64,000 nt of DNA from an uncultured Chryseobacterium sp. (lineage in GTDB: Bacteria > Bacteroidota > Bacteroidia > Flavobacteriales > Weeksellaceae): NCBI GenBank assembly GCA_913778505.1, contig CAJYWD010000032.1, positions 1 through 64,000 of the forward strand, read 5' to 3'. How positions within the stretch are numbered: the first letter of the stretch is position 1; the number at the start of each line of letters is the position of its first letter. The position numbers and the translations under genes are program-made. Positions 3,776 to 55,160 of the stretch are shown here, piece after piece. The notes under the pieces are model-generated. The model was not told where the DNA came from. It did no database searches and saw only the letters and a program-made list of their open reading frames with translations.

Positions 3776-5158
3776 ATGACAAAGAAAATAAAACCGAATC
3801 TTTCCATTGCTCAGATTATCAATATGAGTATGGGGTTTTTGGGAATCCAGATGGCGTTTGGCTTGCAAAATGGTAACGCCAGTAGAATTTTGGCAAACCT
3901 CGGCGCTGATGTTCATGAATTGTCCTGGTTTTGGCTGGTGGCACCGGTTACGGGCTTGGTTGTTCAGCCGATTATCGGGCACATGGGAGACAATACCTGG
4001 AGTCCGCTGGGAAGAAGAAAACCTTATTTTCTAATTGGTGCAGTTCTGTGCGCCATTGGATTGGTTTTACTTCCTAACGCTGCTTCCGTAACACATATGA
4101 TTGCGGCAAATGTTCTGTTGCTGGCTGTTATATTCCTGGCAATGATGGACTTTTCTGTCAACATTGCAATGGAACCATTCCGCGCACTGGTAGGGGATAT
4201 GTTGCCGAAACATCAGGGCACTTTAGGTTTTTCAATCCAAACCATTCTGATTGGAATCGGAGCCGTAATTGGCTCAGAAATGCCGAACTGGTTGACGAAA
4301 TTAGGAATCTCAAATGTTGCGCCGGAAGGTTACGTGGGAGATAACGTCATCTATGCGTTTTACATTGGAGCAACAGTTCTGATTGCCTCAATTCTTTATA
4401 CGATTTTCACTACAAAAGAATATTCTCCGGAAGAATTTGCCGCTTTCGAAGGTGGGAAAGAATTACCTGAAGAACATTCAAAGTTTTCGGATATGTTTAA
4501 GGATTTTGCGAATATTCCAAACCTTATGAAAAAATTAGGACTCGTCCAGTTCTTCTCTTGGTTTGCACTTTTTACAATGTGGGTTTTCACAACCAGTGCT
4601 TTGGCCACACATCATTTCGGACTGTCACCGGAAGATACAACGTCTGTAGATTTCAATAAAGCCGGAGATTTGACAGGCCATTTGTTTGGTTTGTATAATC
4701 TGTTTGCCATTCCGTTTGCATTCCTGCTGACGCCAATTGCCAAGTCGATCGGCAAAAAACAGACCCACGCATTGGCCTTGGCGAGTGGCGGCTTGGGATT
4801 GATTTCGATGTATTTTATCAAAGATACTTCAATGCTCTGGATTTCGATGGTCGGTTTAGGATTTGCCTGGGCGAGTATCCTGGCGATGCCTTACGCAATG
4901 CTGATCGATGCCATTCCCCAAAGGAAAATGGGCGTGTATATGGGGATTTTCAATTTTTTTATCGTCATTCCTCAAATTATTAATGGAATTTTTGGAGGTC
5001 CAATAGTCTCCAACATATTCGGAAAGATGGCCATTGATTACGTAGTGGTTGGTGGAATTTGTATGTTATTAGGCGCTTTCATCACCATGATTTTCATCAA
5101 GTCTCAGGACGAATCTCCAAAAGAAATAGAAGAAGAAATCCAGCAGGTTCATTTTTAA
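3776..5158 (+). CDS. MFS transporter, SLC45/maltose-transporter-like
   Basis: 460 aa multi-TM protein with GHMGDNTWSPLGRRKPYFLIGA; next to the GH13 locus. Confidence 0.8.
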   Translation: MTKKIKPNLSIAQIINMSMGFLGIQMAFGLQNGNASRILANLGADVHELSWFWLVAPVTGLVVQPIIGHMGDNTWSPLGRRKPYFLIGAVLCAIGLVLLPNAASVTHMIAANVLLLAVIFLAMMDFSVNIAMEPFRALVGDMLPKHQGTLGFSIQTILIGIGAVIGSEMPNWLTKLGISNVAPEGYVGDNVIYAFYIGATVLIASILYTIFTTKEYSPEEFAAFEGGKELPEEHSKFSDMFKDFANIPNLMKKLGLVQFFSWFALFTMWVFTTSALATHHFGLSPEDTTSVDFNKAGDLTGHLFGLYNLFAIPFAFLLTPIAKSIGKKQTHALALASGGLGLISMYFIKDTSMLWISMVGLGFAWASILAMPYAMLIDAIPQRKMGVYMGIFNFFIVIPQIINGIFGGPIVSNIFGKMAIDYVVVGGICMLLGAFITMIFIKSQDESPKEIEEEIQQVHF

Positions 5159-5206
5159 TAATAAATTGAATTGTTACACTGAGCTTGTCGAAGTGTCTAA
5201 AATACA

Positions 5207-5233
5207 AAATCCACCAATCCGGTGGATTTTTCG
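5207..5233 (+). terminator. Rho-independent terminator after the MFS gene
   Basis: AAATCCACC-aatc-CGGTGGATTT followed by TT. Confidence 0.75.
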
Positions 5234-5463: not shown

Positions 5464-5471
5464 TACATTTG
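5464..5471 (+). promoter_or_regulatory. Candidate Bacteroidota -7 element (TACATTTG) for the ilv leader
   Basis: Matches TAnnTTTG, 19 nt upstream of the leader ATG; no clear -33 element seen. Confidence 0.4.
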
Positions 5472-5490
5472 TACAGTTCAAAACAAACAG

Positions 5491-5547
5491 ATGCATAACT
5501 CAATAATTATTATTGTCATTCTTGTCATTATCGGATTCCGGTGGTGA
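5491..5547 (+). CDS. ilv leader peptide MHNSIIIIVILVIIGFRW
   Basis: 18-codon ORF with ten consecutive Ile/Val/Leu codons (5503-5532) upstream of ilvE; not in supplied ORF track because short. Confidence 0.8.
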   Translation: MHNSIIIIVILVIIGFRW

Positions 5548-5616
5548 GCGATGGCTTGTGATAATTTTTGAAATTGAAATACTACAGACCATTCTCATCA
5601 CGAGGATGGTTTTTTT
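5541..5616 (+). promoter_or_regulatory. Transcription attenuator: antiterminator 5541-5554/5589-5601 versus terminator 5588-5610 plus T-tract
   Basis: Terminator ACCATTCTC-atcac-GAGGATGGT-TTTTTT (9 bp with one G-U). Antiterminator GTGGTGAG(c)GATGG with CCATTCTCATCAC (13 bp, one bulge, two G-U) overlaps the leader stop codon. Confidence 0.75.
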
Positions 5617-5659
5617 ATTTAAAAACAAAACATTTAATAAAATATAAAACCGATACAAA

Positions 5660-6565
5660 ATGTATTACAATGATGACAGTGTTCTCTTCTTTGATGGGGA
5701 ATATGTGAAAGCAAAAGAAGCCAAGACCGACTTGTACGGTCAATCCTTACACTACGGTTATGCTGTTTTCGAAGGAATTAAATCTTACAAAACAGCCAAT
5801 GGAACTAAGATTTTCAAAGCAGTGGAGCATTACGACAGATTGAGGAAATCTGCCGAAACGATGATGATGCCTTTCGACTATTCTACCGAAGAAATGGTAG
5901 ATATTACCTATAAATCGTTGGAAATTAATAATCTGAGCAATGCTTATATCCGTCCGCTGGTGATATGTTCCCCAAATATGTCACTTTCCAAAGGACAAAA
6001 AAGTTATCTCATAATAGAAGTTTGGAATTGGGACAATGGCTACCTTGCTCAAAAAACGAGAGTGATGACATCCTCTTTCCAGCGTCCGAACCCGAAAGCT
6101 TTCAAAATAGAAGCCAAGGTCAGCGGGCATTATGTCAATTCTATTTTAGCCAGCCAGGAAGCCAAGGACAAAGGTTTTGATGAAGCTTTGGTTCTGGATG
6201 CTGATGGAAATGTGGCAGAAAGTTCAGGTGCCAATATCTTCTTCGAGAAAGACGGCAAATTGTTTACACCGGCAAAAGGAAGCATACTTCCCGGAATTAC
6301 CAGAGCGACAGTTTTTGAAATTTGTGATAATCTTGGAATCCCTTACGAAGAAAAATTCTTCAAACCGGAAGAAATGCAGGGTGCAGATGCAGGTTTTTTC
6401 TGCGGTACAGCGGCAGAAATCGTAGCATTGGATTCTATTGACAATGTTCCTTTCAAACTGAACTGGGAAGAGAGTTTATCATCCAAAATTCAGACAGCTT
6501 ATCGCCATCTTGTATTAGAAGAGGATTATTCATACCTAAAAAGTGAGAATTTAATTTTAGAATAA
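5660..6565 (+). CDS. ilvE: Branched-chain amino acid aminotransferase
   Basis: Class IV aminotransferase; first gene of ilv operon (MYYNDDSVLFFDGEYVKAKEAKTDLYGQSLHYGYAVFEGIKSY). Confidence 0.93.
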   Translation: MYYNDDSVLFFDGEYVKAKEAKTDLYGQSLHYGYAVFEGIKSYKTANGTKIFKAVEHYDRLRKSAETMMMPFDYSTEEMVDITYKSLEINNLSNAYIRPLVICSPNMSLSKGQKSYLIIEVWNWDNGYLAQKTRVMTSSFQRPNPKAFKIEAKVSGHYVNSILASQEAKDKGFDEALVLDADGNVAESSGANIFFEKDGKLFTPAKGSILPGITRATVFEICDNLGIPYEEKFFKPEEMQGADAGFFCGTAAEIVALDSIDNVPFKLNWEESLSSKIQTAYRHLVLEEDYSYLKSENLILE

Positions 6566-6635: not shown

Positions 6636-8318
6636 ATGTCAGAAAATTTAAATAAATATTCCAAAACCCTCACAAAAGACCCGACTCAGCCTGCAACCCA
6701 GGCCATGTTTTACGGGATTGGTTTTCAAAAAGAAGATTTCGACAAGGCGCAGATTGGAATAGCAAGTATGGGTTATGACGGCAACACTTGTAATATGCAC
6801 CTCAATAGTCTTGCTGAGATTGTAAAAAAAGGCATCAGAGACCAGAATTTAGTTGGACTGATGTTCCACACCATCGGAATCAGCGACGGAATGACCAACG
6901 GAACCGACGGAATGCGTTATTCACTCGTAAGCCGAGACATTATTGCCGATTCCATCGAAGCGGTTTGTGCAGGTCAATACTACGATGGATTGATTACCGT
7001 TCCCGGTTGCGACAAAAATATGCCGGGTTCTCTGATGGCGATGGCTCGTCTCGACCGTCCTTCGATTATGGTTTATGGCGGAAGTATTGCGCCGGGTCAT
7101 TACAAAGGCCAGGATTTGAACATCGTTTCCGCTTTCGAAGCGCTGGGAAATAAAATCGCAGGTAAAATTTCTGAGGAAGATTTCCAAGGTGTGATTCAAA
7201 ATTCCTGTCCAAGTGCAGGAGCTTGTGGCGGAATGTACACAGCGAATACAATGGCTTCCGCAATCGAAGCGCTCGGAATGAGTTTGCCTTATTCCTCGTC
7301 TTATCCGGCTCTTAGTAAAGAGAAAAAAGAAGAATGCCAGTTTGCCGGACATTATATCAAAATCCTTTTAGAAAAAGACATCAAACCATCGAACATTATG
7401 ACGCCCAAAGCCTTTGAAAATGCGCTGAGGCTGATTATGATTCTGGGTGGAAGCACCAATGCGGTTCTCCATTTCATTGCGATTGCAAAATCCATCGGCT
7501 ATGATTTGACTTTGGATGATTTCCAAAAAATCAGCGACCAAACACCATTCTTGGCCGACCTTAAACCAAGTGGTAAATATCTGATGGAAGACCTTCATAA
7601 AGTGGGCGGCGTTCCGGCTGTGATGAAATATCTGTTGGATTTAGGCTTGATTCACGGTGATTGTCTGACGGTTACAGGAAGAACCATTGCGGAAAATCTG
7701 GAACACGTCACTTCAATTATCGACAGACAGCAGAATATCATTCACGACATCAAAAATCCAATCAAAGAAACCGGACACATCAGAATTATGTACGGAAATC
7801 TTGCCGAGAAAGGTGCTGTTGCGAAGATCACAGGAAAAGAAGGGGCTTATTTCAAAGGAACAGCTATTGTTTTTGACGGCGAAAAAGAATTCATCAAAGG
7901 CATCGAAGATAAAAAAATTAAGGAAGGAAATGTGGTCGTTATCAAAAACGAAGGTCCGAAAGGCGCACCCGGAATGCCGGAAATGCTCAAGCCGACTTCC
8001 GCTTTGATGGGTTCAGGCTTAGGTAAAAATGTCGCACTGATTACCGACGGAAGATTTTCAGGCGGAACGCACGGTTTCGTGGTCGGTCATATCACGCCGG
8101 AAGCCTTTGCCGGAGGATTGATTGGTTTGATAAAAGACGGCGATGTGATTGAGTTGGATGCCGAAAAAAACACCATCAACGCATTGTTATCAGACGAAGA
8201 AATTACCAAAAGAAAAGCCGAGTTCCAACAACCGGAATACAAAGTGAAAAGCGGTGTACTGTACAAATACGCCAAATCTGTGGCAGATGCCTCGCAAGGT
8301 TGTGTCACCGATTTGTAA
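6636..8318 (+). CDS. ilvD: Dihydroxy-acid dehydratase
   Basis: 560 aa; [46 protein letters not shown]. Confidence 0.97.
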
Positions 8319-8394: not shown

Positions 8395-10137
8395 ATGAGT
8401 AATACCATTTCACAAATAGAAAATATAGAATTAGAACAACGAAAAGCGATAGAAATATCCGGTTCCAAAGCTGTTTTGGAAGCTCTGTTGCAGGAAAATG
8501 TACATACAGTTTTCGGTTATCCCGGCGGTGCAATTATGCCAATTTATGATGCCTTGTATGATTATTCCGAAAAACTGAAACACATTTTAGTCCGCCACGA
8601 GCAAGGCGCCATCCACGCGGCACAGGGATTTGCGAGAACTTCCGGAAAAACGGGGGTTGTATTTGCAACCAGTGGTCCGGGAGCAACCAATCTGGTAACA
8701 GGTTTGGCAGACGCAATGATAGACAGCAATCCGATTGTCTGCATTACAGGTCAGGTTTTTGCCTCGCTTTTGGGAACGGATGCTTTCCAGGAAACGGATG
8801 TCATCAATATCACAACGCCGGTTACAAAATGGAATTATCAGGTCACTGACGCCACCGAAATCCCGGAGGCCATTGCCAAAGCTTTTCATATTGCAAGCAC
8901 AGGCCGTCCCGGTCCGGTTTTGATTGATATTACCAAAAATGCTCAATTACAATTATTTGACTATTTAGGATATAAAAAATGCAATCACATCAGAAGTTAC
9001 CGCCCGGAACCGGAAATCAGAAACGAATATATCGAAAAGGCTGCAGAACTCATTAATCAGGCCAAAAAACCATTTGTTCTTTTCGGACAAGGCGTGATTT
9101 TAGGAAAAGCCGAGGAAGAATTCAAAGCTTTTATTGAAAAAATCAATCTTCCTGCGGCAGCAACTGTAATGGGATTAAGCGCACTTCCAACCAATCACAA
9201 ATTACACGTCGGAATGCTCGGAATGCACGGCAATTATGCACCAAACGTAATGACCAACGAATGTGATGTTCTGATTGCGGTTGGAATGCGTTTCGATGAC
9301 CGAGTGACTGGTCGTTTGGACAAATATGCTAAGCAGGCAAAGGTGATTCATCTTGATATTGACCCGGCCGAAATTGATAAAAATGTGAAGACCACCGTTC
9401 CGGTTTGGGGAAATTGTAAAAAGACACTTCCAATGCTGACGGCGCTTCTCAAAGACAACGACCATTCAGCTTGGTTGGGGAAATTCCGTGAGTTGGAAAA
9501 AGAAGAAATCAAGGAAGTCATTCAAAACGAACTTAATCCAACAACGGATGTAATGACAATGGGAGAAGTGATCAAAGTTTTGAATGAATTAACTAATGGT
9601 GATGCAATCATTACAACCGATGTTGGTCAGCATCAGATGGTTGCCTGTCGATATGCTCAATTCAATAATTCTAAATCCAGCGTAACATCGGGAGGTTTGG
9701 GAACCATGGGATTTGGTTTGCCGGCTGCGATTGGCGCTTGGTACGGCGCACCGGAAAAAACAGTGGTTACAATCATTGGCGATGGCGGATTCCAGATGAC
9801 CTTGCAGGAGTTGGGAACCATCATGCAGTTCGGAGCGAAGGTCAAAATCCTGATTCTAAACAATGAATTCCTTGGAATGGTAAGACAGTGGCAACAGCTG
9901 TTTCACGACAGACGTTATTCTTTTGTGAACATCACAAGCCCGGATTTCGTAGCCGTTGCAAAAGGTTATTACATCGACGGACAAAAAATATCAGAAAGAA
10001 AAGACCTCAAAACAGCTTTGGAAACAATGATAAATCACGATGGCGCTTATCTTTTGGAAGTAATGGTAGGAAAAGAAAATAACGTTTTCCCAATGGTAGC
10101 GCAGGGAACTTCGGTATCAGAAATCAGATTAAAATAA
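8395..10137 (+). CDS. ilvB: Acetolactate synthase large subunit
   Basis: 580 aa ThDP enzyme; FGYPGGAIMPIYDALYD, RHEQGAIHAAQGFARTSGK, GDGGFQMTLQELGT. Confidence 0.97.
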   Translation: MSNTISQIENIELEQRKAIEISGSKAVLEALLQENVHTVFGYPGGAIMPIYDALYDYSEKLKHILVRHEQGAIHAAQGFARTSGKTGVVFATSGPGATNLVTGLADAMIDSNPIVCITGQVFASLLGTDAFQETDVINITTPVTKWNYQVTDATEIPEAIAKAFHIASTGRPGPVLIDITKNAQLQLFDYLGYKKCNHIRSYRPEPEIRNEYIEKAAELINQAKKPFVLFGQGVILGKAEEEFKAFIEKINLPAAATVMGLSALPTNHKLHVGMLGMHGNYAPNVMTNECDVLIAVGMRFDDRVTGRLDKYAKQAKVIHLDIDPAEIDKNVKTTVPVWGNCKKTLPMLTALLKDNDHSAWLGKFRELEKEEIKEVIQNELNPTTDVMTMGEVIKVLNELTNGDAIITTDVGQHQMVACRYAQFNNSKSSVTSGGLGTMGFGLPAAIGAWYGAPEKTVVTIIGDGGFQMTLQELGTIMQFGAKVKILILNNEFLGMVRQWQQLFHDRRYSFVNITSPDFVAVAKGYYIDGQKISERKDLKTALETMINHDGAYLLEVMVGKENNVFPMVAQGTSVSEIRLK

Positions 10138-10190: not shown

Positions 10191-10554
10191 ATGAGTAATA
10201 AAATATTTGATATTAAAGAGAGAACATTTCAGTTTTCAAAACAAATCATTTTTCTTATACAAGAAATAGATTATGCACGAAAATATGATTCCATTTTTAA
10301 TCAGTTACTTAGAAGTGCAACATCAGTCGGGGGCAAATGTAGCGGAAGGGAAATCTGGGTCTTCTAAAAATGATTTTCTAAAATTTCAAATTATTGCTCT
10401 GAAATCTGCAAATGAAACCAAATATTGGCTTCGGCTGATTAAGGAATCATTAGCTGTTAATGAAAAAAAGTTTGATGATTTAATCAATGAAATTGATGAA
10501 ATTTCAAAAGTATTAGCTACTATCATAATAAAGAACAAAAACTCAGATTTATAA
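10191..10554 (+). pseudogene. Frameshifted four-helix-bundle (S23/IVP-like) protein gene
   Basis: MSNKIFDIKERTFQFSKQIIFLIQEIDYARKYDSIFNQLLRSATSVG in one frame, continued by ANVAEGKSGSSKNDFLKFQIIALKSANETKYWLRLI in the next; switch at GGGGG 10329-10333. Confidence 0.8.
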
Positions 10555-10593: not shown

Positions 10594-11184
10594 ATGGAAA
10601 AACAAGAATTTACCATCACATTATACACCGAAAATTCGGTTGGATTAATCGGCAGAATATCCGGAATTTTCTCAAGAAGAAAAATCAATATCGAAAGTCT
10701 GAATACGTCACCTTCTGAGGTGGAAGGCATTCACAGATTCACAATTCTTATTAATGAAACCGAAGAAGTTGTAAGAAAACTTTGCCGTCAGTTGGAAAAA
10801 CAAATCGACATTCTGAAAGCTTATTTCAATACCGATGCGGAGATTGTCTGGCAAGAGCAGGCACTGTATAAAGTTCCCGCCAACGTCGTTACAGAAAAGG
10901 TTTACGTAGAAAGATTGCTTCGTCAATATGGCGCATCTACAGTTGTGATTCGTCAGGATTACATCGTTTTTGAAACGGCTGGGCATCGTGAAGAAATCGA
11001 CCGGCTGACGGAAGAGCTCAACAAATACGGACTCATCGAATTCGTGCGTGGAGCAAGAATCGCTATCATCAAAAACAGCGCAGGAATCCACGAAAAAGTT
11101 CTTGAATTCGAGAAAAGAGAACCTTCAGCAGAAATTGTGGAAAATGAATATCTCGATAAAAGAGACGATGTTTTCACAATGTAA
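10594..11184 (+). CDS. ilvN: Acetolactate synthase small subunit
   Basis: N-terminal ACT domain (FTITLYTENSVGLIGRISGIFSRRKINIESLN). Confidence 0.93.
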   Translation: MEKQEFTITLYTENSVGLIGRISGIFSRRKINIESLNTSPSEVEGIHRFTILINETEEVVRKLCRQLEKQIDILKAYFNTDAEIVWQEQALYKVPANVVTEKVYVERLLRQYGASTVVIRQDYIVFETAGHREEIDRLTEELNKYGLIEFVRGARIAIIKNSAGIHEKVLEFEKREPSAEIVENEYLDKRDDVFTM

Positions 11185-11286: not shown

Positions 11287-12768
11287 ATGGCAAATTATTT
11301 CAACACCTTATCACTCAGAGACCAGTTGCATCAGTTAGGACAGGCAGAATTTATGGATAGTTCAGAGTTTTCTGATGGCGTTTCTGCATTGAAAGGAAAG
11401 AAAATCGTAGTGGTTGGTTGCGGCGCTCAGGGTCTTAACCAAGGTCTGAATCTCAGAGACAGCGGCCTGGATGTTTCTTACGCATTGCGTCAGGAAGCAA
11501 TCGACCAAAAAAGAGATTCGTGGAAAAACGCAACCGAAAATAATTTCAGGGTCGGAACTTATGAAGAACTGATTCCCACAGCGGATTTGGTAATTAATTT
11601 GACTCCGGACAAGCAACACACTTCGGTCATCAATGCCGTTCAGCCTTTGATGAAACAGGGTGCGACTTTGTCCTATTCTCACGGGTTCAATATCGTGGAA
11701 GAAGGGATGCAGATCCGTAAAGATTTGACGGTGATTATGGTCGCTCCAAAATGCCCTGGTTCCGAAGTTCGTGCCGAATATCTGCGAGGTTTCGGTGTTC
11801 CGACGCTGATTGCCGTTCATCCCGAAAATGACCCTCAGGGAAAAGGCTGGGCAGAAGCAAAGGCCTATTGTGTGGGAACTGGCGGTCACAAAGCCGGTGT
11901 TTTGAAATCCTCTTTCGTGGCAGAAGTGAAGTCCGATTTGATGGGAGAACAAACGATTTTGTGCGGACTTTTGCAAACCGGTTCTATTCTTTCGTTTGAC
12001 AAAATGGTCGAAAAAGGAATTGATCCAGGTTACGCTTCCAAATTGGTTCAATACGGTGTTGAGGTCATTACAGAAGCCTTGAAACACGGCGGTGTAAGCG
12101 GAATGCTGGACAGACTTTCCAATCCTGCGAAACTAAAAGCCTTTGAGTTGTCAGAAGAACTGAAAGATATTATGCGCCCACTTTTCCAAAAGCACCAGGA
12201 CGATATTATTTCCGGCAAATTTTCCAGAACAATGATGGAAGACTGGGCAAATGGTGATGCCAACCTTCTGAAATGGCGTGCAGAAACAGGAGAAACCGCT
12301 TTTGAAAAAACACCGGCAGGCGATGTGAAAATCGAGGAGCAGGAATATTTTGACCATTATCTTTTGATGTCGGCCTTCATCAGAGCTGGCGTTGAATTGG
12401 CGTTTGAAACCATGGTAGAAGCCGGAATCAAGCCGGAATCCGCTTATTACGAATCGCTTCACGAAACCCCTTTGATTGCCAACACCATCGCAAGAAAAAA
12501 ACTGTTCGAGATGAATCGTGTGATTTCCGACACTGCAGAATACGGCTGTTACCTGTTCGACCAGGCTTGCAAACCTTTGTTGGCAGATTTTATGAAGTCG
12601 GTGGATACGGACGTGGTTGGCAAAAACTTCAACCAAGGCAAAACGGCTTCGGTAGACAATGCTCAGTTGGTTCACGTCAACGATATTTTGAGAAATCATC
12701 CGGTAGAGATTGTCGGCAGAAAATTGCGCTCTGCAATGACGGCGATGAAGTCTATCAAAACAGTATAG
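11287..12768 (+). CDS. ilvC: Ketol-acid reductoisomerase (long form)
   Basis: 493 aa; [42 protein letters not shown]. Confidence 0.97.
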
Positions 12769-12812: not shown

Positions 12813-12921
12813 GGAGCTTAATCCCGCTTTCCGTTGCAATCTTTTTTGCCACAACGTTTTGTTTACCAAAAGATAGTTGAGTATGGGCAAAAAAGGATTT
12901 CCACTGCAATCGGGGCTATGG
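12811..12921 (+). repeat. Dispersed imperfect palindromic element, family P, copy 1
   Basis: taggagcttaatcccgctttccgttgcaatcttttttgcc...gggcaaaaaaggatttccactgcaatcggggcta. Confidence 0.75.
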
Positions 12922-18370: not shown

Positions 18371-18480
18371 AGAAGCTTAATCCCGCTGTCCGCTGTATCT
18401 TTTTTTGTTTTATCAGGTTTTGTCATTAGAAAGACATTTGGTCAAAAACAAAAAAAGGATGCCGCTACCATCGGGGCTAG
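18370..18480 (+). repeat. Family P palindromic element, copy 2
   Basis: agaagcttaatcccgctgtccgctgtatcttttttt...aaaaaaaggatgccgctaccatcggggctag. Confidence 0.75.
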
Positions 18481-18649
18481 TTAGCGATTCGGAAATTGAA
18501 TAAGGAATTTAATTTAATATAAAGGCTTCGAGAGCCTCAGCCTGACATCGGCTGAAAAATAATTGTTCAGTATTAGAATTGTCACACGGAGTTTATTAAA
18601 GTTATAAATCAATTATCAACTATCAACTATCAATTATCATTTATAAAAT

Positions 18650-24812: not shown

Positions 24813-24893
24813 TTAGGAGCTATATCCCGCTATCCGCTATATCTTTTTTTTTTGGCAAAAAAAGAAAAAGGATGCCGCTGCTATGGGGCTATG
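24813..24893 (+). repeat. Family P palindromic element, copy 3 (compact)
   Basis: ttaggagctatatcccgctatccgctatatcttttttttt...aaaaaggatgccgctgctatggggcta. Confidence 0.7.
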
Positions 24894-24950
24894 GATTTTG
24901 TCAGTCAATCAACTTTTTGTCGACATTGTTTGATTTTGAGATAAAATTAA

Positions 24951-54953: not shown

Positions 54954-55050
54954 TATAACAAAAAATTATTCTCAAAAATAATCATTTTAAGCTAGAATAA
55001 CTAATTTTTTTCCATGATTAAATTCTCTTTTGAAGTCAAAATTTCTGCAA

Positions 55051-55160
55051 TAGGGATGGGCGCGGAAATCCTTTTTTGCGAGAGGCTATGCCGAGCAAAA
55101 AAGATTGCAGCAGACAGCCCGACCCGCGCGGTGGGAAAAGCCTGGCGAGGGGATTGCCCA
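55051..55160 (-). repeat. Diverged family P element, copy 6 (minus orientation)
   Basis: Reverse complement contains gtcgggctgtctgctgcaatcttttttgc...gcaaaaaaggatttccgcgcccatccc. Confidence 0.6.

Follow-up and report, generated by a model that had tools for sequence, protein, structure and literature searches.

The window, by which we mean the whole 64 kb stretch of DNA analysed here, carries the branched-chain amino acid operon ilvEDBNC, with a candidate attenuator upstream of its first gene. The features of this locus are the following.

5464..5471, + strand: TAnnTTTG promoter -7 box, TACATTTG, matching the flavobacterial consensus
5491..5547, + strand: leader peptide ORF, MHNSIIIIVILVIIGFRW*, read from the sequence and conserved in relatives
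5500..5571, + strand: protector hairpin (1:2) of the minimum free-energy fold, in which leader codons pair with a segment 3' of the stop codon and bury region 2
5541..5554, + strand: region 2, the 5' arm of the antiterminator, overlapping the leader stop codon
5586..5616, + strand: intrinsic terminator (3:4), 11-pair stem with a 9-pair core and T7, from the terminator scan
5589..5601, + strand: region 3, common by its pairing to terminator and antiterminator
5660..6565, + strand: ilvE, branched-chain aminotransferase (NCBIfam TIGR01122, above cut-off)
6636..8318, + strand: ilvD, dihydroxy-acid dehydratase (TIGR00110)
8395..10137, + strand: ilvB, acetolactate synthase large subunit (TIGR00118)
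10594..11184, + strand: ilvN, acetolactate synthase small subunit (TIGR00119)
11287..12768, + strand: ilvC, ketol-acid reductoisomerase (NF003557 / TIGR00465)

Upstream, a transporter gene (3776-5158) is followed by a bidirectional terminator of its own (5206-5230), and the leader is thus a separate unit. Between ilvB and ilvN, at 10191-10554, lies a small gene for a 23S rRNA intervening-sequence protein (23S-IVP, PF05635). Its reading frame is split in two, 10191-10367 overlapping 10273-10554, close to a GGGGG run, and the gene is an insertion within the operon that is either frame-broken or carries a sequencing error. The window also contains four Flavo-1 RNAs (Rfam RF01705, of unknown function), one of them 48 bp 3' of ilvC.

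12816-12921, - strand: Flavo-1 RNA
18375-18482, - strand: Flavo-1 RNA
24819-24894, - strand: Flavo-1 RNA
55045-55128, + strand: Flavo-1 RNA

Leader peptide and alternative hairpins

The leader ORF runs from the ATG at 5491 to the TGA at 5545-5547 and has 18 codons, of which codons 5-14 read IIIIVILVII, ten Ile/Val/Leu codons without a break. The leader is therefore enriched in codons for the products of the pathway that it would regulate, as expected of an attenuator. On both strands of the window it is the sole ORF of at most 44 amino acids with a run of at least eight such codons, and a terminator accompanies it. The box at 5464..5471 agrees with the flavobacterial -7 consensus quoted in PMC9723704; the start site is predicted to lie a few bases 3' of it, so that very little 5' UTR would precede the leader ATG.

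Between the leader and ilvE, a terminator scanner independently recovered the hairpin at 5586-5616. Its core of 9 bp (5588-5596 with 5602-5610) extends to 11 pairs over 5586-5612, and the T7 tract occupies 5610-5616. The antiterminator is formed by pairing of 5541-5548 with 5594-5601 and of 5550-5554 with 5589-5593, giving 13 standard pairs with a single bulge at 5549; this duplex is better than in shuffled sequence (p 0.005). Since region 3 provides the 5' side and the loop of the terminator hairpin, terminator and antiterminator are mutually exclusive. The fold of the whole leader region has a z of -4.66, and none of 200 dinucleotide shuffles was as stable. Thus the ten consecutive branched-chain codons, the 9-bp stem with its T tract and the 13-bp exclusive pairing put forward in the preliminary description all hold, the stem being somewhat longer than described, and NCBIfam bears out for all five genes the ilvEDBNC operon of the cognate pathway downstream. 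The protector hairpin is an addition to that description.

Conservation among close relatives

The clade considered here comprises loci with IlvE identity of at least 76%, which gave 34 distinct leaders; structure statistics refer to an alignment of 33 sequences. Among the named IlvE relatives, nearly all Epilithonimonas and Chryseobacterium loci have the leader 154-173 nt and the terminator 36-77 nt before ilvE, and TAnnTTTG is found at most 75 nt 5' of the leader in 34/34 distinct clade leaders. It could be argued that the terminator only ends upstream transcription or limits read-in, and that the short hydrophobic frame arose by chance, given that AT-rich intergenic DNA presumably favours ATT/ATC/GTC runs more than average DNA does. 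However, the upstream gene already has a terminator of its own, and when the intergenic region was simulated 4000 times with a first-order Markov model, an ORF with a run of eight or more Ile/Val/Leu arose twice, and never together with a terminator. Moreover, the leader is present at 41 of the 42 Weeksellaceae ilvE loci examined and in the clade always stands between promoter box and terminator. We therefore regard a chance frame as highly improbable.

The alignment of relatives came out strongly in favour of the preliminary description, with leader ORF, terminator and antiterminator all kept. At the positions of the run, 307 of 336 codons are Ile, Val or Leu, with synonymous exchange among ATT, ATC and ATA, and insertions or deletions there are multiples of three (L022, L025, L028, L083). 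Just 3' of the run, a one-base insertion (L017, L019, L021-L024) exchanges the tail GFRW* for others, GLPVMSNGS* among them, with no loss of RNA pairing. The three-base indels within the run and the frameshifted tails with preserved pairing thus show that the run is maintained for the peptide it encodes, and the sequence 3' of it for its RNA.

The terminator is paired in 98.3% of alignment cells, and two of its pairs changed on both sides (7 cells, versus 2.2 in shuffles). The antiterminator is paired in 95.7% of cells, against 30-60% for slid versions of it; slid versions of the two pairings together reach 30-67%. Variation in the antiterminator is mostly one-sided (G-C/G-U/A-U), and only one pair changed on both sides. 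As judged from this alignment, covariation within the clade supports the terminator well and the antiterminator modestly. The protector is paired in 89% of cells and its inner helix in 98%, so that such a hairpin is found in the window and in much of its clade.

Since MHNSIIIIVILVIIGFRW* is short and hydrophobic, it might instead be a functional small membrane peptide that is co-expressed with the operon and has no regulatory role. The exchange of its C-terminal tail by frame shift (GFRW*, GLPVMSNGS*, GIQ*, GSQ*) with the RNA pairing intact argues against such a function, and the peptides of other families have only the Ile/Val/Leu run in common. In addition, peptides rich in other amino acids occupy the same place before other operons of the window's genome (G000): hisG (L131) is preceded by MHHHHHFHVQAGR* and a terminator, thrA (L138) by MNFTTTTTISTTTTISSCRKVCL* and a terminator, and trpE by MKLMNNKNWWWLSNSMSGLEGLSVF*, after which come a hairpin and T tract (L143:733-810; found by eye). 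The His and Thr leaders are shared by most of the genomes of the genus that were examined. A membrane peptide is thus just as improbable as a chance frame, and the genome appears to use one attenuation scheme for Ile/Val/Leu, His, Thr and Trp. A scan for leuA and pheA leaders in the window's genus found none, a soft result because the scan kept the 3'-most ATG only and missed the Trp leader.

No leader was recognisable before ilvE at L026, L027 and L031, which form a Chryseobacterium subgroup, at L034, L035 and L094, or at roughly half of the remoter loci compared at class level. The subgroup retains a terminator remnant resembling GAGAATGGCTTTTTTT before its leaderless ilvE, and it is possible that the attenuator has been lost or replaced there. 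Six genomes of the same genus (G037, G078, G087, G106, G141, G147), which are 99% complete, are without a true IlvE of the ilvEDBNC type and encode only an IlvE paralogue of about 27% identity. This suggests loss of the branched-chain operon, with auxotrophy as a possible consequence.

Ribosome position and the choice of hairpin

To follow the effect of translation on the RNA, a ribosome was put on each leader codon, the last covered base being assumed to lie 11 or 14 bases beyond the first base of the A site, and the free RNA was folded. At equilibrium the probability of the terminator in the window is 0.998 without a ribosome and likewise 0.998 with the ribosome at the stop codon. With a footprint of 11, it becomes 0.27, 0.013, 0.001, 0.001 and 0.23 for stalls at Val9, Ile10, Leu11, Val12 and Ile13, respectively. 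Stalls at Ile5-Ile8 leave the protector unbroken at equilibrium, and the terminator is favoured. The switch proposed at the outset, in which a stalled ribosome allows readthrough and a ribosome at the stop codon permits termination, is accordingly reproduced by computation for the stop codon and for Val9-Ile13, but not for Ile5-Ile8, where termination still prevails at equilibrium. The best control codons would be Val9-Ile10-Leu11-Val12, perhaps with Ile13, and the equilibrium behaviour at Ile5-Ile8 would weaken the response when Ile is severely limiting. The model thus predicts that limitation for Val and Leu should act at least as strongly as limitation for Ile.

Because the terminators of some lineages are very strong, folding of the nascent RNA was added alongside equilibrium folding. 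In the nascent RNA, which does not yet have the 3' arm of the terminator, a ribosome stalled anywhere in the run leaves region 3 paired with upstream sequence, and most of this pairing is lost once the ribosome passes; under this model stalls early in the run could work too. Over 94 units from many lineages, the nascent antiterminator pairing is lost 1-3 codons past the last Ile/Val/Leu codon in 75, and exactly 2 codons past it in 54. Equilibrium folding of whole leaders, uninformative where terminators are very strong, gave any control codon in only 52 of the 94. Within the folding models, the best single evidence for control by the ribosome is that, in unrelated sequences, the nascent pairing is lost just after the coded run ends.

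The pairing itself also recurs. Leaders and terminators of Chitinophagaceae and other Weeksellaceae differ widely in sequence from those of the clade, and here too the 5' arm of the terminator can pair with a segment that lies at the leader stop codon or immediately precedes it. In Chitinophaga this segment, opposite CCTTCCTCC, consists of the final codons of the leader itself, GGA-GGA-TAG. Across 97 units, Chitinophagaceae included, the antiterminator duplex is better than in shuffled sequences at p ≤0.05 in 89% and at p ≤0.01 in 73%. The stronger argument for the antiterminator is therefore its recurrence in unrelated lineages, and not covariation in the clade. For most other lineages, folding predicts no protector hairpin.

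Conserved structure and alternative folds in a 5' region would equally fit a riboswitch, and a riboswitch, a T-box or an RNA-binding protein could govern the terminator with the ORF being incidental. At gathering score, however, Rfam places no family at the leader, the four Flavo-1 RNAs being its only matches in the window; the matches below threshold at the leader are weak, and Phe_leader, one of them, reaches 19.2 bits where its gathering score is 55 and is not significant. Furthermore, the pattern of conservation is that of a reading frame, and even in unrelated sequences the position of the switch moves with the last Ile/Val/Leu codon. Control of this kind is very unlikely, if marginally less so than the two alternatives considered above.

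Taking these data together, we favour a ribosome-mediated transcription attenuator of the trp/his/ilv type that controls ilvEDBNC, with a probability of about 0.93. Transcription would start just 5' of the leader, as the -7 box indicates, and the leader would be translated. When charged tRNA-Ile, tRNA-Val and tRNA-Leu are abundant, the ribosome would reach the stop codon and cover 5541-5554; region 3 could then pair with region 4, the terminator would form and transcription would stop at the T tract. When these tRNAs are scarce, the ribosome would stall in the Ile/Val/Leu run and break the protector, region 2 would pair with region 3, and the polymerase would continue into ilvE. Because of the protector hairpin, a leader that is not translated should terminate by default.

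Tandem units and comparison with known attenuators

A covariance model built from the element was searched in 148 genomes of the family, and its strongest matches lie before ilvE. The next matches elsewhere, with E from 1.7e-9 to 1.4e-5, lie before ilvD (L152, L154) and leuA (L153, L155, L156, L160), genes named by eye from their protein sequences, each with an Ile/Val/Leu leader. All inspected matches at E ≤1.4e-5, a set that does not include one match in genome G097, precede ilvE, ilvD or leuA. The matches at E ≥5e-5 that were inspected outside branched-chain loci (L157-L159, L161, L162) look like unrelated terminators. The four leuA loci belong to another Weeksellaceae genus, in which leuA has a leader, for example MSLFTNIISIILILGQTQGE*, and a terminator.

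Several relatives have two units of leader and terminator before ilvE. They lie about 150 nt apart in Chryseobacterium loci L086-L093 (IlvE about 72% identical) and in other Weeksellaceae genera (L095-L097, L099-L102, L105); two units are also found before ilvE in two genomes from a different family of the order (L106, L107), and before ilvD in L154. Examples of successive leaders are MNFTNQKNIIVISIIAVVINNSKETAF* then MYQLLSVIIIVIIIPLRL*, and MYNSIIISSIIITGVISHSGEE* then MNLYNNNIIISIIISSPP*. At each tandem locus checked, TAnnTTTG stands 12-31 nt before the first leader; before the second it is absent or, in some loci, found only 60-66 nt away, adjoining the first terminator. This placement of the box suggests a single transcript with two attenuators in series. 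Each unit appears to have its own Ile/Val/Leu-rich ORF and terminator, and an antiterminator is usually predicted; in the second unit of L086-L093 the antiterminator is weak in the shuffle test (p 0.1-0.5).

Thus, in many Flavobacteriales the branched-chain operon probably lies behind two complete leader-peptide attenuators in series, responding to the same amino acids on one transcript, and it is likely that the single unit of the window is a simpler form of this design. Such an arrangement would regulate more sharply and with less leakage than a single attenuator does, and would be the leader-peptide equivalent of riboswitches and T-boxes in tandem. With single and tandem forms in the same family, the value of tandem control is directly testable. 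The tandem arrangement is most likely the part that is new to specialists.

Most of what is known of leader-peptide attenuation comes from Proteobacteria and Actinobacteria, and the mRNAs of Bacteroidota largely do not have Shine-Dalgarno sequences. The mechanism proposed here is the textbook one, and the element resembles the enterobacterial ilvGMEDA, ilvBN and leuABCD attenuators in its control-codon leader, its 1:2 protector, 2:3 antiterminator and 3:4 terminator, and the pathway served. It differs from them in that its sequence is unrelated, with no Rfam match, its leader has 18 amino acids with ten contiguous control codons, and region 2 lies on the stop codon. It also has a Bacteroidota promoter box, no evident Shine-Dalgarno sequence and the gene order ilvEDBNC. 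An enteric-like scheme built from unrelated sequences points to ancient or repeated invention, and it bears on the coupling of transcription and translation in Bacteroidota. The element is absent from Rfam, and its covariance model already finds branched-chain operons specifically.

In the same order as the window, the transcriptome of Flavobacterium psychrophilum gave strong clues for leader-peptide attenuation before amino-acid operons, with structured 5' elements before pheA and hisG (PMC9723704); the main text of that paper presents no ilv leader, mechanism or covariation. The comparative paper of Lopatovskaya et al. 2010, as cited in PMC4833913, may take in Bacteroidota. An ilv leader of the present kind was found neither in Rfam nor in the open literature searched, which included the main text of PMC9723704. 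As far as we could find, then, an ilv leader in Bacteroidota belongs to a class suggested by transcriptomics and not worked out. In another phylum, the attenuator/uORF of Corynebacterium ilvBNC likewise has a leader ORF controlling branched-chain genes, the likeness being one of published description (PMC11857589, PMC10272879). As to the tandem relatives, the Salmonella mgtCBR leader also has two leader ORFs on one mRNA. However, these sense different signals, ATP and proline (PMC3641672), whereas in the tandem relatives both units have Ile/Val/Leu codons and each has its own terminator.
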